Origin: Pseudomonadota bacterium
GTDB taxonomy: Bacteria; Pseudomonadota; Alphaproteobacteria; UBA9655
Reading direction: 5' to 3'
Length of the DNA: 11,503 bases
Assembly (NCBI GenBank): GCA_021809225.1
Contig: JAKBAL010000024.1
Location: 1-11,503, forward strand
Part shown: positions 1 through 11,503 of the stretch, one piece after another
How the letters are laid out: each line of letters begins with the position of its first letter
How positions within the stretch are numbered: position 1 is the stretch's first letter
Position numbers and translations under genes: made by a program
Notes under the pieces: generated by a model
Told to the model about the DNA's origin: nothing
The model's input: only the letters and a program-made list of their open reading frames with translations
Database searches by the model: none

Positions 1-2
1 CC

Positions 3-671
3 CATACTTTATTAACTCATAAATTGCATAGCATAGTTATAAGTAATCCAGAATACTTTACATATAAAGCAGGGCAATATATAAAACTTTATTTAGATGA
101 TGGTACATTTAGGTTGTATTCAATAGCTAATGCTCCTAATCTCCATTATCTTGAGCTACATATTCAAGAACCAAACCATGATAATTTCCTTAAAAATTTT
201 TTACTTACATTAAAAATTAATCAAACTCTTTTTATTTCAAATTCCATGGGGAAATTAGTGTGTTCCCCTAACATTAATCATCCTACATTATTAATTGCTG
301 GGGGATATGCTTTTGCTCCTCTTAAAGCAATAATTGAAAATCTTTACATGAAAGAAGATGTTAATTTTCCTGTTTATTTGTATTGGGGCATATCAACAAT
401 ATTAGATGTATATTATCACAAAGAATTAAAGAAAATAAAAGAGGATGTTGATTGGTTTAATTATCAATTAATCTTAAGTCATTATGACAATCAATGGAAA
501 GGGGACATTGGAAAATTGGGAGATTTTATATTTCGTGATTTTAACAATTTAGAAGACTTCAATATGTATGTTTGTGGCTCAAAGACTATGGTAAAAGACA
601 TATACGACAAAGCTCTTCAAAATAATCTGATGCCAAGTCATTTTTATAGTGATTATGATTTAGAAGCTTAA
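3..671 (+). CDS. Fre/LuxG-type NAD(P)H:flavin reductase, 5'-partial
   Basis: Single-domain ferredoxin-reductase-fold enzyme that uses NAD(P)H to reduce free FAD, FMN or riboflavin. The frame is open to the window edge (seven sense codons precede a TTG at 24), so about 14 N-terminal residues are probably missing compared with E. coli Fre (233 aa). Visible in order are the flavin-binding KAGQY and RLYSIAN (Fre: RPFSMAS), the nucleotide-binding LIAGGYAFAP (Fre: LIAGGTGFS), YWG, and the C-terminal YVCG...MV segment ending FYSDYDLEA. The usual GGTG is GGYA here, a variation in the pyridine-nucleotide loop. The gene is very AT-rich by eye. It converges on the transporter gene with an 11-bp gap. The neighbouring halogenase requires reduced flavin, so a partner role is inferred. 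An N-terminal 2Fe-2S domain outside the window cannot be excluded. Confidence 0.8.
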   Translation, partial: HTLLTHKLHSIVISNPEYFTYKAGQYIKLYLDDGTFRLYSIANAPNLHYLELHIQEPNHDNFLKNFLLTLKINQTLFISNSMGKLVCSPNINHPTLLIAGGYAFAPLKAIIENLYMKEDVNFPVYLYWGISTILDVYYHKELKKIKEDVDWFNYQLILSHYDNQWKGDIGKLGDFIFRDFNNLEDFNMYVCGSKTMVKDIYDKALQNNLMPSHFYSDYDLEA

Positions 672-682
672 TCCTTATTGGA

Positions 683-2008
683 CTAAAGTTGCTCTGAAAC
701 AGGTTGAAATCCACTCTTCAAAGGAAGTTTCAAGGGATCTTCCGTCATCTCAGAGGTTATTATGTCACTCGTTCCACTTCTTAATCTTAAAGCAGATAAA
801 AGAGTAACAATAGCGGTTATAATAATGTAATAAGTAGGAGCAAATGGGCTGCCCGTTTTATCAATCAAAAATGTGACGATTAAAGGTGCTGTACCACCAA
901 AAAGAGCAATACCTATCCCATGCCCTATAGAGATAGTGCTATAGCGCAATTGGGGGGGCACCATGCTTGCTATTATTTTCGGGCTAGCTGCCATTCCCAT
1001 AGCAATGAATAAGCCAAATATGAGCTCACCAATCAATATATATTCTAATTGATTTTGCAAAAATAAATTATAAACAGGATATGCCGCAAGCATGATTCCT
1101 ATCGCTGAAATAATCAGGAGAGACTTACTACCGATCTTATCCGTCAGCGCCCCAAATAAAGGAAGCGTTAATATCACTGTAATAATCGCTGCCATAGTCA
1201 ATAGCATCGCATTGGCCATGGGAAGCCCAATAATTTTTGTTAAGTATGTAGGCATGTAAGCTATAATAATATAACTCATTGCGTCTACTTGTATGCTAAC
1301 GCCCATAATCATGAGAAGTGTACGTTTGTGCATTTTAAAAATGTGTATGAGGGGGATACGTACGATATCGCCTTTTTTCTTTATTTGTTCAAAAATGGGA
1401 GTTTCAGCTACTTTCATACGTGTATAAAACCCAATGATGGCGGTTACAATTCCAAACAAAAAGGGGAGTCTCCAGCCCCAAGCATATAAAGATTCATGAC
1501 TTAAAATTGCTGTTGTAATACTAATGACTGTTATACTTAATAAGCCACCAATAAATGAGCCCATGATAGCTAAACTCGAGAAAAATCCTTGATGCTTTAT
1601 TGATGAATGCTCATAAAGAAAAATTATTGAACCCGTATATTCACCACCGCAAGACAAGCCTTGTAGTAACCTTAGTAAGATAAGTAGGATAGGAGCCCAG
1701 ATCCCTATATTTTGATAAGTAGGTAATAAACCCATCAAAAACGTAGGGACCGCCATTAATAATAAAGTAAAAGCGAGTGTATTTTTTCTACCAAATCGAT
1801 CGCCTAGATGACCAAAAATAATTCCACCCAATGGTCGCGTCAGGTAACCTGCCGCAAAGCCCCCGAATGTTGCTAAAAGAGATAAGATCGGATCATGTGT
1901 TGGGAAAAATAAAGTTGCTAAGACGGGCGCTAAAAAAGCATATAATGTAAAATCGTACCATTCTAATACTTCTCCAATGATTCCAGCTGCAACAACTTGT
2001 TTTTTCAT
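683..2008 (-). CDS. MFS transporter, metabolite:H+ symporter (MHS/ProP-ShiA-like) family
   Basis: Inner-membrane 12-helix carrier of 441 aa. MHS hallmarks are visible: EWYDF near the N-terminus (residues 16-20), RPLGG (58-62), MFS motif A GHLGDRFGRKN between helices 2 and 3 (66-76), and LQGLSCGGEYTGS in helix 4 (115-127). The last 30 or so residues form a polar cytoplasmic tail. Known MHS members take up proline/betaine, shikimate, alpha-ketoglutarate or citrate by proton symport; the substrate here cannot be read from sequence. It follows the halogenase by 27 nt on the same strand, so the two are probably co-transcribed. GGAAG lies 6 nt before the ATG. Transport of an aromatic substrate or a halogenated product is an inference from context only. 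Confidence 0.87.
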   Translation of the reverse strand: MKKQVVAAGIIGEVLEWYDFTLYAFLAPVLATLFFPTHDPILSLLATFGGFAAGYLTRPLGGIIFGHLGDRFGRKNTLAFTLLLMAVPTFLMGLLPTYQNIGIWAPILLILLRLLQGLSCGGEYTGSIIFLYEHSSIKHQGFFSSLAIMGSFIGGLLSITVISITTAILSHESLYAWGWRLPFLFGIVTAIIGFYTRMKVAETPIFEQIKKKGDIVRIPLIHIFKMHKRTLLMIMGVSIQVDAMSYIIIAYMPTYLTKIIGLPMANAMLLTMAAIITVILTLPLFGALTDKIGSKSLLIISAIGIMLAAYPVYNLFLQNQLEYILIGELIFGLFIAMGMAASPKIIASMVPPQLRYSTISIGHGIGIALFGGTAPLIVTFLIDKTGSPFAPTYYIIITAIVTLLSALRLRSGTSDIITSEMTEDPLKLPLKSGFQPVSEQL

Positions 2009-2035
2009 AGCATGCTTCCAAATTTATTGATTACA

Positions 2036-3619
2036 CTACGCTACCATTTCCACATTATATTGGCGCTTAAGGTATTCATAGTGCGTTGGTAACATTTCAC
2101 TGTATCTTTTCGAGTTCATTTGAATATCACGGAATATATCTTCTGCTTTTTCCATAATATCGTCACGATAATTCAATATAGGTAAGCTTAATTGTGGTAG
2201 TCTATTAACCCCGCAAAGGATGCATTGATAACTGCTATTCGTCCAAAAGTTTTCAAATCGAGCTGAAAATGAATTATAGAGATTATTATCAGACTGATGG
2301 CTTTTGCGAACAGGGATTCCCGCATCCTGACGAGATAATATTAATTGTAAAAATTCTGGCATTTTAGTTTCGTATTTATTAGCTTTCCAAAATGGAGTAT
2401 CTTCTCTAGGAGATGTTTTGAAGTGCATAGCAATAAAGTTTTTAACATCCTCTACCATGTAAGAAACTTTTTGATTGAATTTATCTCGAAAAGCAGGATT
2501 TATTTTTTTGTCAGGGAAATTTTTAATTAATTGATAAAGAGCAGCATAGATGAAGTAAATTCCTGTAGATTCAAGCGGTTCTAAAAAGCTACTTGATAAC
2601 CCGATACTAACACAATTCTTTACCCAAGAATTACGACGTCTTCTTGACTGAAATTTAACAAATCGAGTGTCTGCTTTCTCCCCTCTTTTACCAAAAAACT
2701 TGCGAATTTCTTGTTCTGCCTCTTCATCACTTATAAAATGGCTAGAATAAACATAACCATTACCCGATCTATGAAACAAGGGGATCTCCCACAACCATCC
2801 TGCTTTAAATGCAGTTGCCGACGTATAAGGGCGTATGTCATCAATTTCAGGATTTTCTGGAATGTTTATTGTGACAGCCCTATCTGTTAATAAAGTTTCT
2901 TCAAAAGAAATGATGGGTTCCTTCAGGACTTTCTCAATTAAAAACCCTGTAAATCCAGAGCAATCTATAAATAAATCAGCATGATATTTTTTGCCAGTTT
3001 CACCCACGACACACCGGATATTACCTTGCTCGTCCAACTCAGTCGTTACAAGGTTATCAATGGCATGTATAACGCCCCGCTTAGTAGACCAACCTTTTAA
3101 AAAGTTTGCTACTAATAACGCATCAAAGTGGTAGGCATAATGTTGAGCGGGTGTACCGTCAAAAAATTTCGGGGATTTATTTAAGTCGCATGAAGCGACC
3201 ATATCAAAGCATGCATAATCCATAGGCATGGGATAGTTGTTTTCTAAGCGTTTTTTTATCCAAATATGAGTGAGTGGTATTTCCTCTATTGATGGTATTT
3301 CCCCAAAATTATGATAATAGTAGTCGCTTCCTGCACCTATGGGCTTTGTCCAGTTTTGGAACTTAACACTTAATTTATAGGTTGCGTGGCACGCAGGCAT
3401 CCATTCTGTTTCAGGAATACCGAGCTTATCAAAAAACTCTGTCTTGATTGTGGGGACTGTTGCCTCGCCCACACCTATACGTGGGATAGAAGATGATTCT
3501 ATTAGGGTAATATTAGCATTGAAATTAAGTGATTTAGCAATATAAGCTGCGGACATCCAACCAGAGGTTCCGCCTCCGATCACAACTATGTCACGAATCA
3601 TGTTTTCATTATTCTTCAT
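2036..3619 (-). CDS. Flavin-dependent tryptophan halogenase (PrnA/RebH-like)
   Basis: FADH2-dependent halogenase: flavin, O2 and halide form HOCl, which reaches the substrate through the catalytic lysine and chlorinates or brominates an indole ring. Numbered from the ATG at 3619 (527 aa), it has the FAD motif GGGTSGW (15-21), the family lysine K82 (PrnA K79), the WxWxIP signature W275-P280, and the catalytic glutamate E350 in FLEPLESTG (PrnA E346). The indole-stacking residues H103, F105 and W459 (PrnA H101, F103, W455) are kept. PrnA Y443 and E450, which contact the amino-acid part of tryptophan, align with L447 and R454, so the substrate may differ. An ATG 15 nt upstream is less likely because the ribosome-binding site lies between the two. 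First gene of a unit with the MHS transporter. Confidence 0.95.
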   Translation of the reverse strand: MKNNENMIRDIVVIGGGTSGWMSAAYIAKSLNFNANITLIESSSIPRIGVGEATVPTIKTEFFDKLGIPETEWMPACHATYKLSVKFQNWTKPIGAGSDYYYHNFGEIPSIEEIPLTHIWIKKRLENNYPMPMDYACFDMVASCDLNKSPKFFDGTPAQHYAYHFDALLVANFLKGWSTKRGVIHAIDNLVTTELDEQGNIRCVVGETGKKYHADLFIDCSGFTGFLIEKVLKEPIISFEETLLTDRAVTINIPENPEIDDIRPYTSATAFKAGWLWEIPLFHRSGNGYVYSSHFISDEEAEQEIRKFFGKRGEKADTRFVKFQSRRRRNSWVKNCVSIGLSSSFLEPLESTGIYFIYAALYQLIKNFPDKKINPAFRDKFNQKVSYMVEDVKNFIAMHFKTSPREDTPFWKANKYETKMPEFLQLILSRQDAGIPVRKSHQSDNNLYNSFSARFENFWTNSSYQCILCGVNRLPQLSLPILNYRDDIMEKAEDIFRDIQMNSKRYSEMLPTHYEYLKRQYNVEMVA

Positions 3620-3623
3620 ATAA

Positions 3624-3631
3624 CTCTCCCT
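3624..3631 (-). promoter_or_regulatory. Ribosome-binding site fixing the halogenase start
   Basis: AGGGAGAG read on the minus strand, 4 nt before the ATG at 3619. The alternative in-frame ATG at 3634 lies directly in front of it and has no purine-rich site of its own, so the downstream ATG is preferred. Confidence 0.7.
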
Positions 3632-3649
3632 CATATGAATAATTTATGG

Positions 3650-3678
3650 ATGGTAAAAGTATGTTTACCAATTTTCAA
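3650..3678 (-). promoter_or_regulatory. Candidate halogenase promoter with embedded inverted-repeat operator
   Basis: On the minus strand TTGAAA (3678-3673), a 17-bp spacer and TACCAT (3655-3650) form a plausible sigma-70 promoter about 30 nt before the halogenase start. A perfect inverted repeat TGGTAAA-N6-TTTACCA covers 3651-3670, that is, the downstream part of the spacer and nearly all of the -10 box, where a bound protein would block RNA polymerase. The core GTAAA-N6-TTTAC resembles the TyrR-box consensus known from gammaproteobacteria. That resemblance may be chance. Confidence 0.4.
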
Positions 3679-3733
3679 AGAACTTATTAGCCTCTTGACG
3701 AGAAATAATACAAATTGCAACCTCTGTCTAGAA

Positions 3734-3751
3734 AAATTCTTTTAAGAATTT
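3734..3751 (-). terminator. Weak AT-rich hairpin downstream of the slipin gene
   Basis: An 8-bp inverted repeat AAATTCTT/AAGAATTT separated by TT. On the minus strand it runs into a short T-rich stretch, so it could be a weak terminator for the slipin gene. The stem is almost all A-T and would have to open for a loop, so it may only be an incidental palindrome. Confidence 0.2.
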
Positions 3752-3795
3752 CAGTAGCTAAAGAAATAAATACCATATACATAAAAAACCTAGAC

Positions 3796-4587
3796 CTACT
3801 CTTTTTTACTTTTTGTAAAATTTTCGATCATGGGCATTAGCTCAATGGGCAGGGGAAAAACAATGGTGGAGTTATTTTCTTCAGCAATTGATCCCAAAGT
3901 TTGGAGGTAGCGAAGAACCATCGTTTGTGGCTGCTGAGCAAGAACTTGCGCGGCTGTAAGAAGATTTTCTGAAGCCTGGTATTCTCCTTCTGCATGAATG
4001 ATTTTCGCGCGACGGTCCCGCTCAGCTTCGGCTTGTTTGGCAATCGCGCGAATCATACTCTCGTCCAGGTCTACCTGTTTAATTTCAACGTTCGTGACCT
4101 TAATACCCCACGCTTTTGTTTGCTCATCCAAAATACCCTGGAGAGAGGCGTTGAGTTTATCACGCTCAGCTAGGATGACATCTAGCTCGTGTTGACCTAA
4201 AACAGACCGTAAGGTTGTTTGGGCCAATTGGCTGGTGGCTTCAAAGAAATCTTCCACATTGATAATGGCTTTTTGAGGATCAATCACGCGGAAATATAAA
4301 ACGGCATTGACTTGAAGAGAGACGTTGTCTCGAGAAATAACTTCTTGAGTCGGGATATCAAAAACAACGACCCGTAAATCAACCCGCATCATTTTCTGAA
4401 TGATGGGAAAAACAAGAACCAGGCCGGGCCCTTTTACTTTCCAAAATCTTCCGAGGGTAAAGACAACTCCCCTTTCAAATTCCCATAGAATACGGAAGCT
4501 TCTGAAGATAATGAGTAGAAATACAACTAAAATAATACAAAATAATATAAAAGTATTCGAAAAATCAGCTGGTGAATATTCATGCAT
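3796..4587 (-). CDS. Slipin / stomatin-like SPFH (band 7) membrane protein
   Basis: Membrane-microdomain scaffold of 263 aa that oligomerises at the inner membrane; family members are linked to membrane-protein quality control. There is one N-terminal hydrophobic helix (about residues 11-32), then the SPFH domain (about 36-190) with [46 protein letters not shown] split across the first sheet, [14 protein letters not shown] and [15 protein letters not shown], followed by a helical [23 protein letters not shown] segment (183-205). Length and order match bacterial slipins. Slipins often sit beside an NfeD-type protease gene; none is present in the adjacent sequence. The start has AAGGAAG upstream at good spacing. 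The gene reads away from the divergent cysteine-rich gene. Confidence 0.9.
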
Positions 4588-4623
4588 GTTTAGCTTCCTT
4601 TTGATATAATAAGCGCTAGTCCT

Positions 4624-4683
4624 TCACTCTTTTCCCTTTTTTAAGGCAAGAGGTGATCGCGCTTTCCAAAGCTCTTCATCCAT
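4624..4683 (-). CDS. Possible 19-residue small ORF upstream of the slipin gene
   Basis: Reads MDEELWKARSPLALKKGKE and ends with TGA, 36 nt before the slipin start on the same strand. AGGA lies 9 nt before the ATG and a perfect TATAAT (4715-4710) lies further upstream, although no good -35 is seen. It could be a small protein, a leader peptide for the slipin gene, or chance. No family recognised. Confidence 0.2.
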   Translation of the reverse strand: MDEELWKARSPLALKKGKE

Positions 4684-4809
4684 TTTTACACATCCTAATT
4701 TTTTATGATATTATAAATGAGTAAATCAAAAATTAATCATGCCGCTTTTTCTCCCTTCATTCAAAATTAAATTCTAGGGAGTTATACTTGATTATTTATC
4801 GCTAAAAAC

Positions 4810-4862
4810 TTGACTGTCTTTTTTTAACCATTCATGATTTAAAAAAAATATCTTAAAGATAT
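4810..4862 (+). promoter_or_regulatory. Candidate promoter and palindrome upstream of the cysteine-rich secreted gene
   Basis: TTGACT (4810-4815), a 17-bp spacer and CATGAT (4833-4838) form a fair sigma-70 promoter. It is followed by the near-perfect inverted repeat ATATCTT-A-AAGATAT (4848-4862) in the predicted 5' leader. The rest of the 4588-4883 gap is AT-rich and carries the opposite-strand signals of the slipin unit. Confidence 0.4.
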
Positions 4863-4883
4863 GAAAAAAGAGAGAAAATAATA

Positions 4884-5414
4884 ATGAAGTTGCAATGGAA
4901 ATCCGGAATTATTGGCGTTTTTGCCCTGTTTGTATTGGGCGAACTAAAAGCCGAACAACCGCTCGCTCTTACAGTACCAAAACTTATGACTCAGTCAAAA
5001 CCTACAACCCCTGCGGAAGCTGAAGCTCAGCTTCAGGGAGCTATTACAGATTTTTGTTATTGGTTTGCTTATGTTGGAGAATTTTTCAATATGAGTTTTT
5101 GTAACCCTGAAGAATGTAATACACCAACAGGTTTTTATAATTGCTTAGAGAAAGTAGCAGCTTGGCTAGATCCAGAATTATGTGTGGATCTCAAATCCCA
5201 GTTGCGTCCTATCTGTGATAATGCTTGTACATGGCTTTTCTGTAAAAAATCTGACGTACGCCAAGCTTGTAAATCTGTTTGCTGTCCCCTTAACCGTGAT
5301 AACATTAAGAATTGTATGGGCAAGGGAGAAAGCTGTCCTTTCCCTCCCATTAAATGCGGATCAGCTCTTTCTAAAAAAAGACGAGAGCCTTCACAAAAAG
5401 GAAAATCTTATTAG
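4884..5414 (+). CDS. Secreted cysteine-rich protein of unknown function (14 Cys)
   Basis: Not recognised as a known family. The 176-aa product starts with a Sec-type signal peptide (MKLQWK, a hydrophobic core at about residues 8-19, possible cleavage after LKA at 23). A short Thr/Pro/Glu-rich linker follows, then a compact region with 14 cysteines between residues 58 and 158: 58, 73, 78, 87, 100, 111, 115, 120, 129, 133, 134, 144, 151 and 158. The even number suggests up to seven disulfides formed outside the cytoplasm. The tail from about 163 (KKRREPSQKGKSY) is basic. There are no CxxCH haem sites and no regular ferredoxin spacing. The ribosome-binding site is weak (AAGAGAG). A role in the envelope or as an exported effector is speculation. 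uvrB follows 56 nt downstream. Confidence 0.72.
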   Translation: MKLQWKSGIIGVFALFVLGELKAEQPLALTVPKLMTQSKPTTPAEAEAQLQGAITDFCYWFAYVGEFFNMSFCNPEECNTPTGFYNCLEKVAAWLDPELCVDLKSQLRPICDNACTWLFCKKSDVRQACKSVCCPLNRDNIKNCMGKGESCPFPPIKCGSALSKKRREPSQKGKSY

Positions 5415-5437
5415 GAAAGATCTTTTGCTGATTCAGG

Positions 5438-5467
5438 ATGGAAAAAATGAATAAGGACGTATATTAA
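5438..5467 (+). other. Nine-codon mini-ORF directly before uvrB
   Basis: Reads MEKMNKDVY and ends with TAA four bases before the uvrB start codon. The best Shine-Dalgarno for uvrB (AAGGA, 5453-5457) lies inside it, at an unusually long 13-nt spacing. Re-initiation after this mini-ORF could help the TTG start. This is inferred from geometry only. Confidence 0.2.
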
Positions 5468-5470
5468 ACC

Positions 5471-7477
5471 TTGACATCCTCACTCTTCACCCTCGTTTCT
5501 GAGTTTGAACCCGCTGGTGATCAACCGCAAGCGATTCAAGACTTGTTGAAAGGTTTGGACGAAGGCGACCGAAATCAGGTTTTGCTTGGTGTGACTGGGT
5601 CTGGAAAAACCTTCACCATGGCTCAGATCATTGCTCGCATGGGGAAACCGGCCCTAATTATGGCGCCGAATAAGACCTTGGCTGCTCAGCTGTATGGAGA
5701 GATGAAATCCTTTTTCCCCCATAATGCGGTGGAATATTTTGTCTCTTACTATGATTATTACCAACCCGAGGCTTATGTGCCGCGGACTGATACCTACATT
5801 GAAAAAGAAGCGACCATTAACGAGCAAATCGATCGGATGCGCCATTCTGCAACACGGTCTCTTCTTGAGCGGCGAGATGTGATCATTGTAGCGAGTGTCT
5901 CTTGTATTTACGGTATCGGGTCAGTGGAAACTTATAGCCAAATGGTGGTGCCTCTCAAAGTTGGCGATCGGATTGAGAGAGGCGATCTTTTACGAAAGTT
6001 GGTGAGTCTTCAATACAAGCGTAATGATATTGATTTTCATCGAGGAACCTTTCGAGCGAAAGGGGATATTATCGAAATTTTCCCATCCCACTATGAAGAC
6101 CGGGCCTGGAAAATTTCCCTCTTCGGGGACGAGATTGAAACAATTGTGGAGGTTGATCCTTTAACAGGAGCCAAAACGTCTACCCTTGAAACCATTAAGG
6201 TTTATGCCAATTCCCACTATGTCACCCCAGGGCCTACGATCCAGCAAGCCATTCAAGGGATTAAGGTGGAGCTCAAAGAGCGCCTTGAAGAACTTAGGCA
6301 GGAAGACAAACTATTGGAAGCTCAACGCTTGGAACAGCGCACGAAATTCGATCTTGAAATGCTCGCAGCCACAGGGATGTGTGCAGGGATTGAAAACTAC
6401 TCTCGCTTTTTGACAGGCCGGGCGCCTGGAGAGCCCCCTCCCACCCTGTTTGAATATTTGCCGAAAGATTCTCTTTTGTTTGTCGATGAAAGCCATGTCA
6501 CTGTTCCCCAATTAGGGGGGATGTATAAGGGGGACGCTTCGCGCAAAAGAACTCTTTCTGAGTATGGATTTCGTTTGCCCTCTTGTCGAGATAACCGACC
6601 CTTGAAGTTTGAAGAATGGGAGGGCATGCGTTCATCCACTGTTTTTGTCTCGGCCACCCCTGGTCCTTGGGAGATGGATCAAACCCAGGGTGTATTTGCA
6701 GAGCAAGTGATTCGGCCCACAGGACTTATGGATCCCGTTTGTATTGTAAGGCCCGTTGAAAACCAGGTGGAAGATCTGATTCAGGAATGCCAAGAAGTGG
6801 CTAAGAAAGGTTTTCGTGTTCTGGTGACGACGTTAACCAAACGCATGGCAGAAGCTTTAACCGAATACCTCAGTGAAGCGGGCCTTAAGGTTCGGTATGT
6901 GCATTCTGATGTGGATACCCTAGAGCGCATTGAAATTATCCGAGATCTGCGACTGGGTGTGTTTGATGTCTTGATTGGAATCAACCTTTTAAGAGAAGGT
7001 CTTGATATCCCCGAATGTGGACTTGTCGCCATATTGGATGCAGATAAGGAAGGCTTCCTGCGGTCTAAAACCTCTCTCATCCAAACGATGGGAAGGGCTG
7101 CTCGGAACGTGGAGGGGAGGGCCATCTTATATGCGGATCGAATCACAAATTCTATGAAAGCAGCCCTTGAGGAAACCAATCGACGGCGAGAAAGGCAGCA
7201 GGCCTATAATGCTGCCCATGGAATTACTCCTGAGACCATTAAACGATCGATCCATCGGATTTTGGAAAGTGTGTATGAAAAAGATCATACAACAATTTCT
7301 TTGGCAGAAGATCCTTATTTGGAAATGAATCCTAAAAAGAGGAAAGCCTATAAAGAAAGCCTTGAAAAGAAAATGTTTGCGGCAGCGGGCAACCTGGAAT
7401 TTGAAGAAGCTGCGCGTTTGAGAGATGAACTGAAGAGGTTAGAAGAGAAAGAGTTAGAATTAGGTGCTCTGGAATAA
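5471..7477 (+). CDS. uvrB: UvrABC excinuclease subunit B
   Basis: Damage-verification helicase-like subunit of nucleotide excision repair; it receives damaged DNA from UvrA and recruits UvrC. The protein is 668 aa, the normal length. Visible are Walker A GVTGSGKT (40-47), the beta-hairpin [12 protein letters not shown] (93-104) that inserts between strands, the DEAD-type DESH (339-342), the helicase segments LREGLDIPE and QTMGRAARN, and the C-terminal UVR domain [12 protein letters not shown] (643-654) that binds UvrC. The start must be TTG: an in-frame TAA lies one codon upstream, and no ATG, GTG or other TTG occurs before the conserved N-terminus. Its Shine-Dalgarno is distant. No GTTC-N7-GTTC, the alphaproteobacterial LexA box, is visible just upstream. 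GC content is higher than in the 1-3.7 kb block. Confidence 0.98.
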
Positions 7478-7487
7478 TGTTTACCGA

Positions 7488-7508
7488 ATAAGTACTTATA
7501 TGGTGCAC
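7488..7508 (+). promoter_or_regulatory. Candidate YefM-YoeB operator: paired palindromes
   Basis: A perfect 12-bp palindrome ATAAGTACTTAT (7488-7499) is followed by the 6-bp palindrome GTGCAC (7503-7508). Their centres are exactly 12 bp apart, the spacing I recall for the long and short palindromes (TGTACA cores) of the E. coli yefM operator. It lies 29-49 nt before the antitoxin start, where autorepression is expected. The cores differ from TGTACA, so this is a candidate. Confidence 0.45.
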
Positions 7509-7536
7509 TAAGAGAATAGAAGGCTGGAGTTCGGTT

Positions 7537-7791
7537 ATGGATGCAATTACCTATACACAAGCGCGTAAAAATTTCACACAAGCGATGAATCGCGTGTGTG
7601 AAGATCATGTTCCCCTTGTTATTACACGCCAATCAAAAGAGCCTGTGGTGATGCTTTCTCTTGCGGATTACAATGCCATTGAAGAAACATTGTACCTTTT
7701 ACGGAGCCCTCGAAATGCTCAGAGGCTGCTTGAATCTATACGGGCAGCAGAAAGAGGTGAATTTATTCAGAGGGACTTAATAGAAGATTAG
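7537..7791 (+). CDS. yefM: YefM-type antitoxin (Phd/YefM family)
   Basis: Antitoxin and autorepressor of 84 aa that neutralises the YoeB mRNA interferase and, with it, represses its own operon. The Phd/YefM N-terminal fold is visible: ITYTQARKNFTQAMNRVCEDHVPLVITRQSKEPVVMLSLADYNAIEETLYLL in two halves (residues 4-29 dimer/DNA-binding, 30-55 sheet and helix), then the toxin-wrapping tail LLRSPRNAQRLLESIRAAERGE (54-75). GGAG lies 7 nt before the ATG. The stop TAG abuts the toxin ATG, the usual coupled arrangement. It appears intact although the toxin next to it is broken. Confidence 0.92.
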   Translation: MDAITYTQARKNFTQAMNRVCEDHVPLVITRQSKEPVVMLSLADYNAIEETLYLLRSPRNAQRLLESIRAAERGEFIQRDLIED

Positions 7792-8046
7792 ATGGAAATT
7801 GTATTTACAAAGAAAGCTTGGGATGACTATGTCTACTGGCAAACCATGGACATAAAAATGCCGAAGCGTGTAAATCCTTTAATTAAAGATATATTGCGTA
7901 CGCCCTTCAGTGGAATAGGAAAGCTCGAGCCCTTAAAGTTTGAAATTGCAGGTTGTTGGTCACGACGGATTAATGATGAACACTGAATTGTCTACCAAGT
8001 CCAGCAAGAGAGGCTTGTTATTCACCAATGCAGTTATCATTATTAA
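7792..8046 (+). pseudogene. yoeB: YoeB-type toxin interrupted by TGA at the catalytic Arg codon
   Basis: YoeB is a ribosome-dependent mRNA interferase. The frame aligns end to end with the 84-residue E. coli protein without indels: WDDYVYWQ (10-17), the catalytic glutamate E46 in LEPLKFE, WSRRINDEH (56-64), and after the break IVYQVQQERLVIHQCSYHY with H83 and Y84. Codon 65, the catalytic arginine in E. coli YoeB, is TGA (7984-7986); a single C-to-T change from CGA would explain it. The 64-residue product would lack Arg65, His83 and Tyr84 and should have no RNase activity. The perfect preservation downstream suggests a recent mutation. A sequencing error or TGA readthrough would give a functional toxin, but no other gene here uses TGA as sense. 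Confidence 0.9.
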
Positions 8047-8061
8047 AATGAGGGTACGAGG

Positions 8062-8997
8062 TCAGGGAATACCGAATTTTCCTTTTTTAAATTCCTCTCT
8101 TACGTTTTGAATGGGAGTTGGGACTGAAGAGTTGAGCTCAATCGCTCCCTTAGGTAGGAAACCCTTAGCACAAGTCACGGTCGTTTCTCTGAAGGATTTT
8201 AGGGAGAAATGATGTTTGCCTGTCGTTGGTTTATTTTCTTCTTTGCTCTTTCTTTCCTTTCCTTTGTATTTTTTATATGAAGTATTGTTATGAAAGGGGG
8301 GGGGCGCTTCATAAGAAGCGGCCCTTCTTATCTGGCTGTTCTGGGAGGGAGGCTCTTCCTTATAAGCATGGTTTTGTCTAGGTGATAAATTTTCTATAAA
8401 GCGGCTATAGTCTGACTTATTATTCCTTTCGCTTATTTGTTTTTCTAAGGGGGAGGTATGTGGATGGAATGAGGTTTCATTCGTAAGTTTTTTAAAGTTT
8501 CGCTTGGACCTCACTTTAATGACACGGTGAGGTATTTTGTTTTCTTCTCGTGGAGCGCAAAGACGATTGATATCCAAAATGAGAGGCGGAAGTGCAGTAT
8601 CTTCTTGGTTTTGGGGGTGGTGAGAAAAAACTTGAGCTTGCATTTCAATTAAAGCGCTGATTTCATCTTGCTGAGGCAAGACTTTTCGAGGTGAGCTAGA
8701 GCTACGCTGACGTCGACGTTTAGGCTTTTCCTGCCCACTTCCTCTAATATAACATTTGCTCTCTTCGGAGATTTCTGGAGGCTTATTACGTAAAGGAGGT
8801 GAGTTATTCTGGGGGTAATTTCTTTCAAAGATAGAGAAATCGGGTAAGGGTAAGTACGGAACAGATCGTGCATTTGTGGAATTGCTCCGAGGGCTTTTTT
8901 TCTTGAGCAAGTGTTGCTCTTCTTCCATAGCAGTTAGTGGTTGGTTCATAAAACACGTAAGGCCGAAAATAAAGAGTAATTTTAAGAGAATTTTCAC
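8062..8997 (-). CDS. Secreted, basic, low-complexity protein of unknown function
   Basis: No family recognised. The 311-aa product begins with a clear Sec signal peptide (MKILLKLLFIFGLTCFMNQPLTA, in two parts: charged start 1-6, hydrophobic core 7-17; cleavage after A23). The mature part is rich in Lys, Arg, Ser, Pro and Asn and has little hydrophobic content, so it is probably largely disordered. Three SPR motifs occur (residues 35-37, 102-104, 205-207). A strongly basic patch KPKRRRQRSSSSPRK (91-105) resembles a eukaryotic nuclear localisation signal. The start is GTG with AAGGGG 11 nt upstream; no in-frame ATG fits the signal peptide. The coding strand contains a C9 run. It ends 15 nt from the yoeB remnant, convergent. 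An exported effector is one possibility, unproven. Confidence 0.65.
   Translation of the reverse strand: MKILLKLLFIFGLTCFMNQPLTAMEEEQHLLKKKSPRSNSTNARSVPYLPLPDFSIFERNYPQNNSPPLRNKPPEISEESKCYIRGSGQEKPKRRRQRSSSSPRKVLPQQDEISALIEMQAQVFSHHPQNQEDTALPPLILDINRLCAPREENKIPHRVIKVRSKRNFKKLTNETSFHPHTSPLEKQISERNNKSDYSRFIENLSPRQNHAYKEEPPSQNSQIRRAASYEAPPPFHNNTSYKKYKGKERKSKEENKPTTGKHHFSLKSFRETTVTCAKGFLPKGAIELNSSVPTPIQNVREEFKKGKFGIP
8296..8304. repeat. G9/C9 homopolymer inside the secreted basic protein gene
   Basis: Nine consecutive G on the plus strand, read as a Pro-Pro-Pro codon run (residues 232-234) on the coding strand. Gain or loss of one base would shift the frame of the last quarter of the protein. 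Homopolymers of this length can vary by slipped-strand mispairing and are also prone to sequencing error. Confidence 0.8.
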
Positions 8998-9015
8998 AGC
9001 GCATAAAACCCCTTC

Positions 9016-9021
9016 ATTATA
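9016..9021 (-). promoter_or_regulatory. Candidate -10 box for the secreted basic protein gene
   Basis: A perfect TATAAT on the minus strand 18 nt before the GTG start, giving a very short leader that contains AAGGGG. No convincing -35 lies 16-18 bp upstream; the surroundings are strongly AT-rich, so a chance match is possible. Confidence 0.3.
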
Positions 9022-9144
9022 AATTGGAATCTATTGCAAGTATATAAAATTATATATAAAATGTATTAAGGATGCATTAATTTATTTTAGGGTTTATTTT
9101 AAAATTACAATAGAGCAAAAATTTTATTGATATACTTATCCGAC

Positions 9145-9279
9145 ATGAAAATAAGGTTTTTCTGGATTGCTCTCGCAATGCATGCTCTCGTGAAAAAAGG
9201 TAGGCGACTTATTGGTTTCTCGCTTTTGCGCGGACAAGCTTTGCGAGGTCCCGTAAGGGCCGCGGCAACGCAGTTTTAA
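9145..9279. repeat. Repeat-like element in the 9.0-9.3 kb intergenic region
   Basis: The gap between the secreted protein gene and the PEBP gene is AT-rich up to about 9140 and then changes to a clearly more GC-rich stretch. That stretch holds a hairpin ATTGC-TCTC-GCAAT (9166-9179) within CTGGATTGC...GCAATG, which resembles the short palindromic repeats (CATTGCGAG...GCAATCCAG type) scattered in many intracellular bacteria. It also holds a direct repeat TGCTCTCG (9168-9175 and 9183-9190) and a possible longer stem TTGCGCGG/CCGCGGCAA (9226-9233 with 9260-9268, one bulge). The plus strand could encode a 44-residue peptide across it, without a good ribosome-binding site. A dispersed-repeat remnant is the preferred reading. 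Confidence 0.35.
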
Positions 9280-9314
9280 ACTTTAACACCCACTTTTATT
9301 TTGATTGAGTAGGA

Positions 9315-9776
9315 TTATTTTTTTTTGCTATGCTTTCGCTCATACACGCCCACAAGGCTAGCTTCTGCAAGGATATGGTTTTGCAGCGCTTGTAAGAGGT
9401 CTGCTTTTGTTGCGTCTTCAGGGAGTTGAAGCACTGTATCAAGGGCATAAAGCGTAAAGAAGTACCTATGTTTCCCACTGGGTGGATTGGGCCCACCGTA
9501 ACCTGTTTTCCCCCAGCTGTTTAGGCAACTTTGGATGCCGTGGGGAAGCGCCTTTAGTCCTTCCGCCAACACACCTATGGTGGGCGGAATATTATATAAT
9601 ATCCAATGATCCCAGGTATGGTGAGGAGCATCCGGGTCATCACAAACCAAAGCTAATGAATGGGTTCCTTCAGGAACATCTTGCCACCTCAAAGGGGGCG
9701 AAGTGTCTTCCCCTTCACCTGTATACTGAACAGGAATGGGATCAAAGTTCTCAAATGCTGAGCTTAAAAGTATCAT
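9315..9776 (-). CDS. YbhB/YbcL-family (PEBP, Raf-kinase-inhibitor-like) protein
   Basis: Small cytosolic protein (153 aa) of the phosphatidylethanolamine-binding family; the biochemical role of bacterial members is largely unsettled. Hallmarks are visible in order: YTGEGEDTSPPLRW (18-31), the ligand-pocket motif CDDPDAP (45-51), DHWILYNIP (56-64), and GYGGPNPPSGKHRYFF (92-107) with its conserved GKHRY. The length is typical of YbhB/YbcL. It has no signal peptide, unlike YbcL. It has a very strong Shine-Dalgarno (GGGGGAGGA) ending 6 nt before the ATG, but that site lies in the 3' arm of a long hairpin, so translation may be structure-controlled. It lies 144 nt downstream of ndk on the same strand. 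Confidence 0.93.
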   Translation of the reverse strand: MILLSSAFENFDPIPVQYTGEGEDTSPPLRWQDVPEGTHSLALVCDDPDAPHHTWDHWILYNIPPTIGVLAEGLKALPHGIQSCLNSWGKTGYGGPNPPSGKHRYFFTLYALDTVLQLPEDATKADLLQALQNHILAEASLVGVYERKHSKKK

Positions 9777-9782
9777 GAATTA

Positions 9783-9827
9783 TCCTCCCCCTTTATATTA
9801 TATAAACGATATCATAAAGGAGGAGGA
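9783..9827 (-). promoter_or_regulatory. Long hairpin sequestering the PEBP ribosome-binding site
   Basis: Arms 9783-9796 and 9814-9827 flank a 17-nt loop. In the minus-strand RNA all 14 positions pair (13 Watson-Crick plus one U-G wobble); on the plus strand the wobble becomes a C-A mismatch. The 3' arm contains the PEBP Shine-Dalgarno GGGGGAGG and the 5' arm is its anti-Shine-Dalgarno CCTCCTCC. This would hide the site from ribosomes, as in an RNA thermometer or attenuator, if transcription starts upstream. A TATAAT on the minus strand sits in the loop (9802-9797); a start from it would omit the 5' arm. Confidence 0.5.
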
Positions 9828-9920
9828 ATGCCTAAGATTTTTGATTAAAGGTACGGAAAACACATCTAAAATCAAAGAAAATATAGAAAGTTAAATACTC
9901 ATCATAGAGAACTAAACGCT

Positions 9921-10337
9921 TTATCCCACAATTTCTATTTCACTGAAGAAAAAGGAAATTTCTTTAACAGCGTTGTCGAGGCTGTCCGATCCATGGACCG
10001 AGTTGGCTTCAATGGATTCAGCAAAGTCACGACGGATCGTTCCTTCGTCTGCGTTGGCAGGATTGGTTGCTCCCATCACATCACGATAACGGTTAACGGC
10101 ATCTTCGCCTTCCAGGACTTGCACGACCACAGGGCCTGTAATCATGAAGGTGCAAAGATCATTAAAAAAAGAACGTTCTTGATGGACTGCATAAAATTTT
10201 TGGGCTTGGTCAAGGGTCAGGTGAATGCGCCTTTGAGCAATGATCCTAAGACCTGAATTTTCAATCAATTGATTGACAGCTCCGGTTAGGTTTCTACGGG
10301 TAATATCAGGCTTGAGAATGGATAATGTGCGTTGCAT
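9921..10337 (-). CDS. ndk: Nucleoside diphosphate kinase
   Basis: Transfers the gamma-phosphate of ATP to nucleoside diphosphates through a phosphohistidine, balancing the cell's NTP and dNTP pools. The protein is 138 aa, normal for the bacterial family. Visible are the N-terminal RTLSILKPD (3-11), the nucleotide-binding segment RDVMGATNP (85-93) and GTIRRDF (99-105), and the active-site NSVHGSDS (112-119) with catalytic His115. GGAG lies 8 nt before the ATG. ogt ends 68 nt upstream on the same strand, so the two may be co-transcribed. No terminator hairpin with a T-run is seen after the stop, so transcripts may continue to the PEBP gene. Confidence 0.98.
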
Positions 10338-10405
10338 GTATAAAACTCCAAAATTGAAAAAGCGTCTCTTCTATAACGCTAATTGAGGAAAAAGGAAAGA
10401 AAGTA

Positions 10406-11503
<1,098 letters not shown>

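Follow-up and report, generated by a model that had tools for sequence, protein, structure and literature searches.

Gene content of the locus

The locus described here is a group of three genes around a flavin-dependent halogenase, at the start of an 11,503-nucleotide stretch of DNA (contig JAKBAL010000024.1, positions 1 to 11,503; the whole stretch is called the window below). A PrnA-like halogenase (2036 to 3619, minus strand; PF04820, E = 3.1e-149, 498.2 bits against a cut-off of 21) is followed downstream on the same strand, after 27 nucleotides (nt), by an MHS-like carrier of the major facilitator superfamily (ProP/TcuC/ShiA type; 683 to 2008, minus strand; PF07690, E = 1.1e-33, and PF00083). 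A Fre-like NAD(P)H:flavin reductase with an FNR fold and without a 2Fe-2S domain (3 to 671, plus strand; PF00175, E = 6.3e-16; first 20 residues outside the window) lies on the other strand, convergent with the carrier, and 11 nt separate its end from the carrier. These family matches are not due to chance, and with the catalytic residues of the halogenase intact they bear out the first-pass annotation of this DNA, which had proposed a PrnA-type halogenase with an MHS carrier at 27 nt and a Fre/LuxG-type reductase ending 11 nt from that carrier on the other strand (best models: TIGR00883 for the carrier, Fre for the reductase). Since they lie 27 nt apart on one strand, halogenase and carrier are probably co-transcribed; the reductase falls outside this transcript because it is convergent, which weakens the view of one transcript for all three genes. 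The longest halogenase open reading frame spans 2036 to 3634 (minus strand, 532 aa), and residue numbers for the window halogenase follow it, although the ATG at 3619, which gives 527 aa, is a better start than 3634 because a Shine-Dalgarno-like AGGGAGAG (3624 to 3631, minus strand; read directly) precedes it by four bases.

Active site and clade of the halogenase

The halogenase retains the fold and catalytic residues of PrnA and departs from it where PrnA holds the amino-acid end of tryptophan. PrnA was its best solved-structure match (553 bits; 45.8% identity over 511 aligned residues), and the predicted model agrees with the PrnA fold at template-modelling (TM) scores of 0.92/0.95. The catalytic K87 and E355 (PrnA K79 and E346) are present, as are W280, W282, I284 and P285, forming the W.W.IP motif; PrnA H101, F103, W272 and W455 are likewise conserved. 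Three residues differ: Leu452 replaces PrnA Y443, Arg459 replaces E450 and Gln470 replaces Y461. Published studies report that Y443, Y444, E450 and F454 of PrnA hydrogen-bond the amino-acid end of tryptophan (PMC5659210) and give the Trp4 motif of group A halogenases as YYxxF(E|D)(A|Y)EF(R|K)NFW(L|T)N(G|S)(N|S)YY (PMC8269204); the window halogenase lacks this motif and reads LYNSFSARFENFWTNSSYQ. Across 121 aligned rows (the window halogenase plus 120 listed homologues) the E450 position is occupied by Q (33), G (29), L (22), R (21), S (8), A (6), D (1) and E (1), so that 120 of the 121 rows are non-Glu and P0103 is the sole Glu row, and Glu is kept in 16 of 16 rows with a Tyr pair and a following NFW/NYW motif (PrnA/RebH/Thal type). 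In the tree, the window row groups with P0001 and P0002 (support 100/100) within a 45-row clade that separates from the PrnA/RebH group at 100/99; the window's own halogenase was absent at 100% among the listed homologues. The enzyme, at 46% identity, thus differs from group A (PrnA, RebH/Thal) in these three residues and in belonging to a separate, well-supported clade, and the window is without pyrrolnitrin or rebeccamycin genes. Two different halogenases of the same clade, P0031 and P0039, may share one contig (longest contig 522,716 bases for both).

With Arg in place of the amine-binding Glu and Leu in place of one Tyr of the pair, the enzyme probably acts on something other than free L-tryptophan. 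Judged from these alignments, free L-tryptophan is a doubtful substrate, and more likely candidates appear to be aryl or indole compounds that are acidic, amine-free or amine-blocked. Mutants described in the same papers are relevant to this view: PrnA E450K raised activity on anthranilate about 8-fold (PMC5659210), and joint mutation of the Tyr pair, Glu and Asn abolished tryptophan activity (PMC8269204). Other observations weigh against it. The E450K change also disordered a loop in PrnA (PMC5659210), so one residue does not fix the charge of the substrate; Hal1 converted more tryptophan when only its Tyr pair was mutated, and MHal2-4, halogenases without the Trp4 motif, halogenated indole (both PMC8269204), so neutral indoles stay candidates. 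Confidence in the predicted model is low near R459 (mean predicted local distance difference test score [pLDDT] 58 for residues 451-460), and the model therefore fails to confirm the placement of this residue. The first-pass suggestion of a halogenated indole is weakened in its derivation from tryptophan, since the amine-binding residue is replaced, and could hold for an indole without a free amine.

Reductase, carrier and their association with the halogenase

The 20 N-terminal residues missing from the window are present in a full-length protein of 242 aa (P0121), whose 11,713-base contig is presumably the window's own and only 210 bases longer, so little further upstream sequence exists. 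The best NCBIfam match of the reductase was the Fre model, and neither the window protein (129.6 bits) nor P0121 (134 bits) reaches its cut-off of 230, which puts the reductase below the Fre equivalog. Scanned against Pfam, the truncated and the full-length protein both gave PF00175 alone, consistent with an FNR fold lacking the Fer2 domain, and no Flavin_Reduct domain, in agreement with the first-pass statement that the reductase is not of the PrnF/RebF type. The predicted model of full-length P0121 (pLDDT 91.8) aligned to E. coli Fre (1QFJ) with TM scores of 0.84/0.89 at 21% identity, and other FNR-fold reductases score alike. A word-based search of ∼5.8 billion proteins yielded 30 matches among 236 candidates, of which 10, with the window's own among them, have at least 39% identity. 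By its predicted structure, the reductase is Fre-like in fold and forms a small family of its own: it resembles E. coli Fre and LuxG in size, in fold and in lacking Fer2, and differs from them in its 21% structural-alignment identity and its score well below the Fre cut-off. No match to it was found in viral contigs. The sole reductase match among the 17 genomes of the host's order (in G673) was a different FNR-type protein with no tblastn match to the window reductase; by our reading, the neighbour of that FNR-type frame looks like a nitric oxide reductase. The first-pass annotation had called a Fre-type partner unusual, and this stands in part. None of the 100 control loci described below, almost all of which hold distant halogenases, had a related reductase, but a Fre-like reductase from a metagenome has served such halogenases in vitro (PMC8269204), and the partner reductase is, according to a review, readily substituted (PMC8407142), so that a Fre-like partnership would be chemically ordinary.

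For the carrier, the best NCBIfam model was TIGR00883 (metabolite/H+ symporter), matched over its full length at 382.5 bits against a cut-off of 443.45, so the protein resembles the MHS carriers ProP, TcuC and ShiA but scores below that model's cut-off; the best equivalog was ProP (300.6 bits against 544). MHS-like carriers are common in the host lineage, being found in 17 of 17 genomes of the order to which the close relative G248 belongs (at most 44% identity to the window carrier in the listed rows), with up to 16 MHS/ProP-like matches in a single 2.1-Mb genome (among G013, G149, G248 and G665-G678), and the window copy lies on its own branch.

The three genes probably occur together a second time. 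The listings for halogenase P0002 (83% identity), reductase P0127 (62%) and carrier P0156 (70%) share a contig size of 8,730 bases, each being a cluster of one contig from one source (lgn). A jitter test on contig sizes (60 of the 120 listed halogenases, all 30 reductases and 40 of the 120 listed carriers) gave null expectations of 0.00035 triples and 0.065 reductase-carrier pairs; beyond the window's contig, one triple was observed (at 8,730 bases) and one further pair, reductase P0126 with carrier P0155, at a contig size of 19,503 bases. As a control, tblastn (E = 1e-3) was run against 100 other halogenase loci (L001-L097 and L120-L122; 64 of them over 15 kb, L081-L097 with only 1.5 kb on each side, and L083 and L093 duplicating L041 and L037). 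It recovered no related reductase, and the carrier matched in L031 (MHS-like) and L079 (a weak fragment); as all loci except L120 and L121 hold distant halogenases (at most 52% identity, or identity not given), the control says little about relatives at 70-85%. Locus L049 was left uncounted as a reductase neighbour, its match being only to the Fer2 part of P0131.

That the trio is kept together in relatives, a point on which the first-pass annotation had made its reading depend, is suggested by this probable second, diverged contig, and the 19,503-base pair speaks against it. A conserved trio is further qualified by several points. The second contig is deduced from equal contig sizes; no halogenase of the 19,503-base contig was among the 120 listed, so reductase and carrier may occur without one; and the reductase is convergent to the halogenase-carrier pair. 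The carrier may be incidental, since MHS-like carriers abound in the host's order and one in Streptomyces (L031, carrier at 8379 to 9530, 34% identical to the window carrier) lies ∼0.5 kb from a distant halogenase. The description of the locus as a minimal cassette is weakened as well: the reductase continues beyond the window edge, and the contig presumed to be the window's own is barely longer, so other biosynthetic genes may neighbour the locus.

Host, origin and interpretation

The window UvrB was closest to those of G248 and G013 (87%) and G149 (80%) among 289 genomes drawn evenly from the Alphaproteobacteria (the class of G001). The order of G248 comprises 17 genomes of 0.9-2.4 Mb (completeness not given), and these sizes in the nearest kin suggest a host-associated life; the host is thus probably a host-associated alphaproteobacterium, as had been proposed. 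The halogenase was found in none of these 17 genomes at E = 1e-30, and in three related genomes compared at uvrB (L113-L115) only uvrB matched among the window genes. None of the 289 alphaproteobacterial genomes gave a halogenase above 389 bits (10 had more distant halogenases at E = 1e-100) and none of 369 genomes of the class of G006 (Alteromonas) gave one above 369 bits (5 with more distant ones at E = 1e-100), with only the best 3-5 first-look candidates scored in some genomes of both searches; the orders of G369, G388 and G312 (1, 1 and 2 genomes) returned nothing. Matches were found in 3 of 143 genomes of the order of G478 (1,006, 991 and 622 bits; the 622-bit match has the canonical Glu). 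This order is probably Legionellales: G478 has eight DotI/IcmL-type matches, P0043, which probably corresponds to the order's best match, is named Legionellaceae, and P0042 is identical in sequence to the order's second-best match. Among homologues that carry an organism name, P0010 (72%) is the closest, and it is gammaproteobacterial. The best halogenase match in viral contigs was 38% and in genome contigs 52%, each among the 80 matches listed (the latter serving as control loci). Neither a plasmid nor a phage source is supported, all 91 plasmid and 77 phage records being below 60%.

The low guanine-plus-cytosine (GC) content of the reductase, carrier and halogenase (27.9, 37.9 and 37.0%, against 40.0-47.3% in the remaining window genes) fits a foreign origin, and we infer that the alphaproteobacterium received the trio by transfer, though neither the donor nor the direction is proven. 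Transfer from a setting with nonribosomal peptide synthetase (NRPS) genes, such as that of the probable Legionellales relatives, is plausible, because two relatives at 61-62% identity lie near such genes. In one (L121) the start of the halogenase shares 4 nt with an NRPS-type thioesterase; in the other (L120) a distance of 1.5 kb separates the halogenase from a condensation-adenylation protein downstream of it, with what we read as a transposase-like frame between them. Upstream of the L120 halogenase, GST, cupin and LUD-domain genes stand in a row. The halogenases of G724 and G716 (probably Legionellales) are of the same clade as the window's and also lack Glu at the E450 position, but have Gln there where the window has Arg, NRPS-type neighbours, and no related reductase or carrier on their short contigs.

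The explanation we favor, with a confidence that divides about evenly for and against, is a horizontally acquired halogenation unit of a probably host-associated alphaproteobacterium, made up of a Fre-like reductase, a halogenase whose aryl substrate is something other than free L-tryptophan, and a carrier. The genes, folds and residues behind it were computed; from these we infer the co-occurrence on a second contig, the substrate type, the roles, the transfer and the direction of transport. In such a unit, the reductase would make FADH2 from NAD(P)H and FAD, and the halogenase would use FADH2, O2 and chloride or bromide to form a lysine-bound halogenating agent at K87; in this halogenase family the agent is held by a lysine. 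The target would be an electron-rich aryl group sandwiched between H108, F110 and W464, on the kind of aryl or indole compound proposed above (acidic, amine-free or amine-blocked), and the co-directional carrier may move substrate in or product out.

The locus might instead be the edge of a larger NRPS-type cluster, its synthetase genes beyond the contig end, with the halogenase acting on a carrier-bound or peptide tryptophan-like residue. The two relatives near NRPS genes (L120 and L121), the end of the window inside the reductase, and the loss of the amine-binding Glu, which would also suit an acylated amine, all fit this; yet the annotated genes on the halogenase's other side are housekeeping-type (SPFH, uvrB, PEBP, ndk), the relatives are only 61-62% identical (P0043, P0042), and both lack a related reductase or carrier, though their contigs are short (11.3 and 13.7 kb), and we regard this as somewhat unlikely. 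That the enzyme is a free L-tryptophan halogenase of the ordinary kind, which recognizes the amine less strictly and supplies halotryptophan, seems improbable. Replacement of Glu by Arg is a charge reversal, and the residue counts given above (non-Glu in 120 of 121 rows, Glu in all 16 PrnA/RebH/Thal-type rows) run against it, despite the PrnA fold, the conserved stacking and catalytic residues and the even higher tryptophan conversion of Hal1 with its Tyr pair alone mutated (PMC8269204). Convergent orientation, the GC content of the reductase against that of the halogenase-carrier pair, and the 19,503-base contig would suit chance neighbours, with the reductase belonging to an unrelated upstream operon and only halogenase and carrier forming a unit; the apparent return of the trio on the 8,730-base contig, though the reductases are only 62% identical, makes this very unlikely.

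If the favored explanation of an acquired halogenation unit is true, it describes a clade of natural halogenases in which the charge at the amine-binding site is reversed, a help in the search for aromatic-acid halogenases, and an example of reductase and carrier genes that have stayed next to a halogenase gene, and it suggests that host-associated bacteria make halogenated small molecules. The papers listed in full-text searches for halogenases together with Legionella, Holosporales, symbionts, or endosymbionts and amoebae showed nothing on such a system in their titles and the opening lines of their abstracts. A bolder and, in our estimate, unlikely extension is that a natural PrnA-fold family in host-associated bacteria switched from amino-acid to carboxylate recognition through Glu to Arg, a change that engineers approached with E450K, and in one alphaproteobacterial lineage left the NRPS setting to work as a scavenge-and-halogenate unit, in which a proton-coupled carrier would import an aromatic acid from the host and a Fre-like reductase would be dedicated to the halogenase.

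Past the halogenase, the window encodes an SPFH protein, a hypothetical protein, uvrB, YefM with a YoeB-like frame, another hypothetical protein, a PEBP, ndk, a methylguanine methyltransferase-type protein and an aminotransferase. None was seen to be specific to making a halogenated product, in keeping with the first-pass remark that the window holds no other biosynthetic gene. A promoter scan of positions 1-5500 gave 20 matches against 21.0 expected by chance, which is chance level, and a terminator scan of the same region 5 against 3.5; an Rfam scan found no match at gathering scores, and a repeat search nothing striking. Two of the window's proteins are without Pfam or NCBIfam matches and have, by eye, a signal-peptide-like start: a cysteine-rich 176-aa protein just upstream of uvrB (4884 to 5414, plus strand) and a basic, low-complexity 311-aa protein (8062 to 8997, minus strand). 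The YefM-type antitoxin (7537 to 7791, plus strand) is directly followed by the YoeB-type toxin frame (7792 to 7986, plus strand), which reaches its stop with only 60 of 80 profile positions covered, so that the toxin looks truncated.

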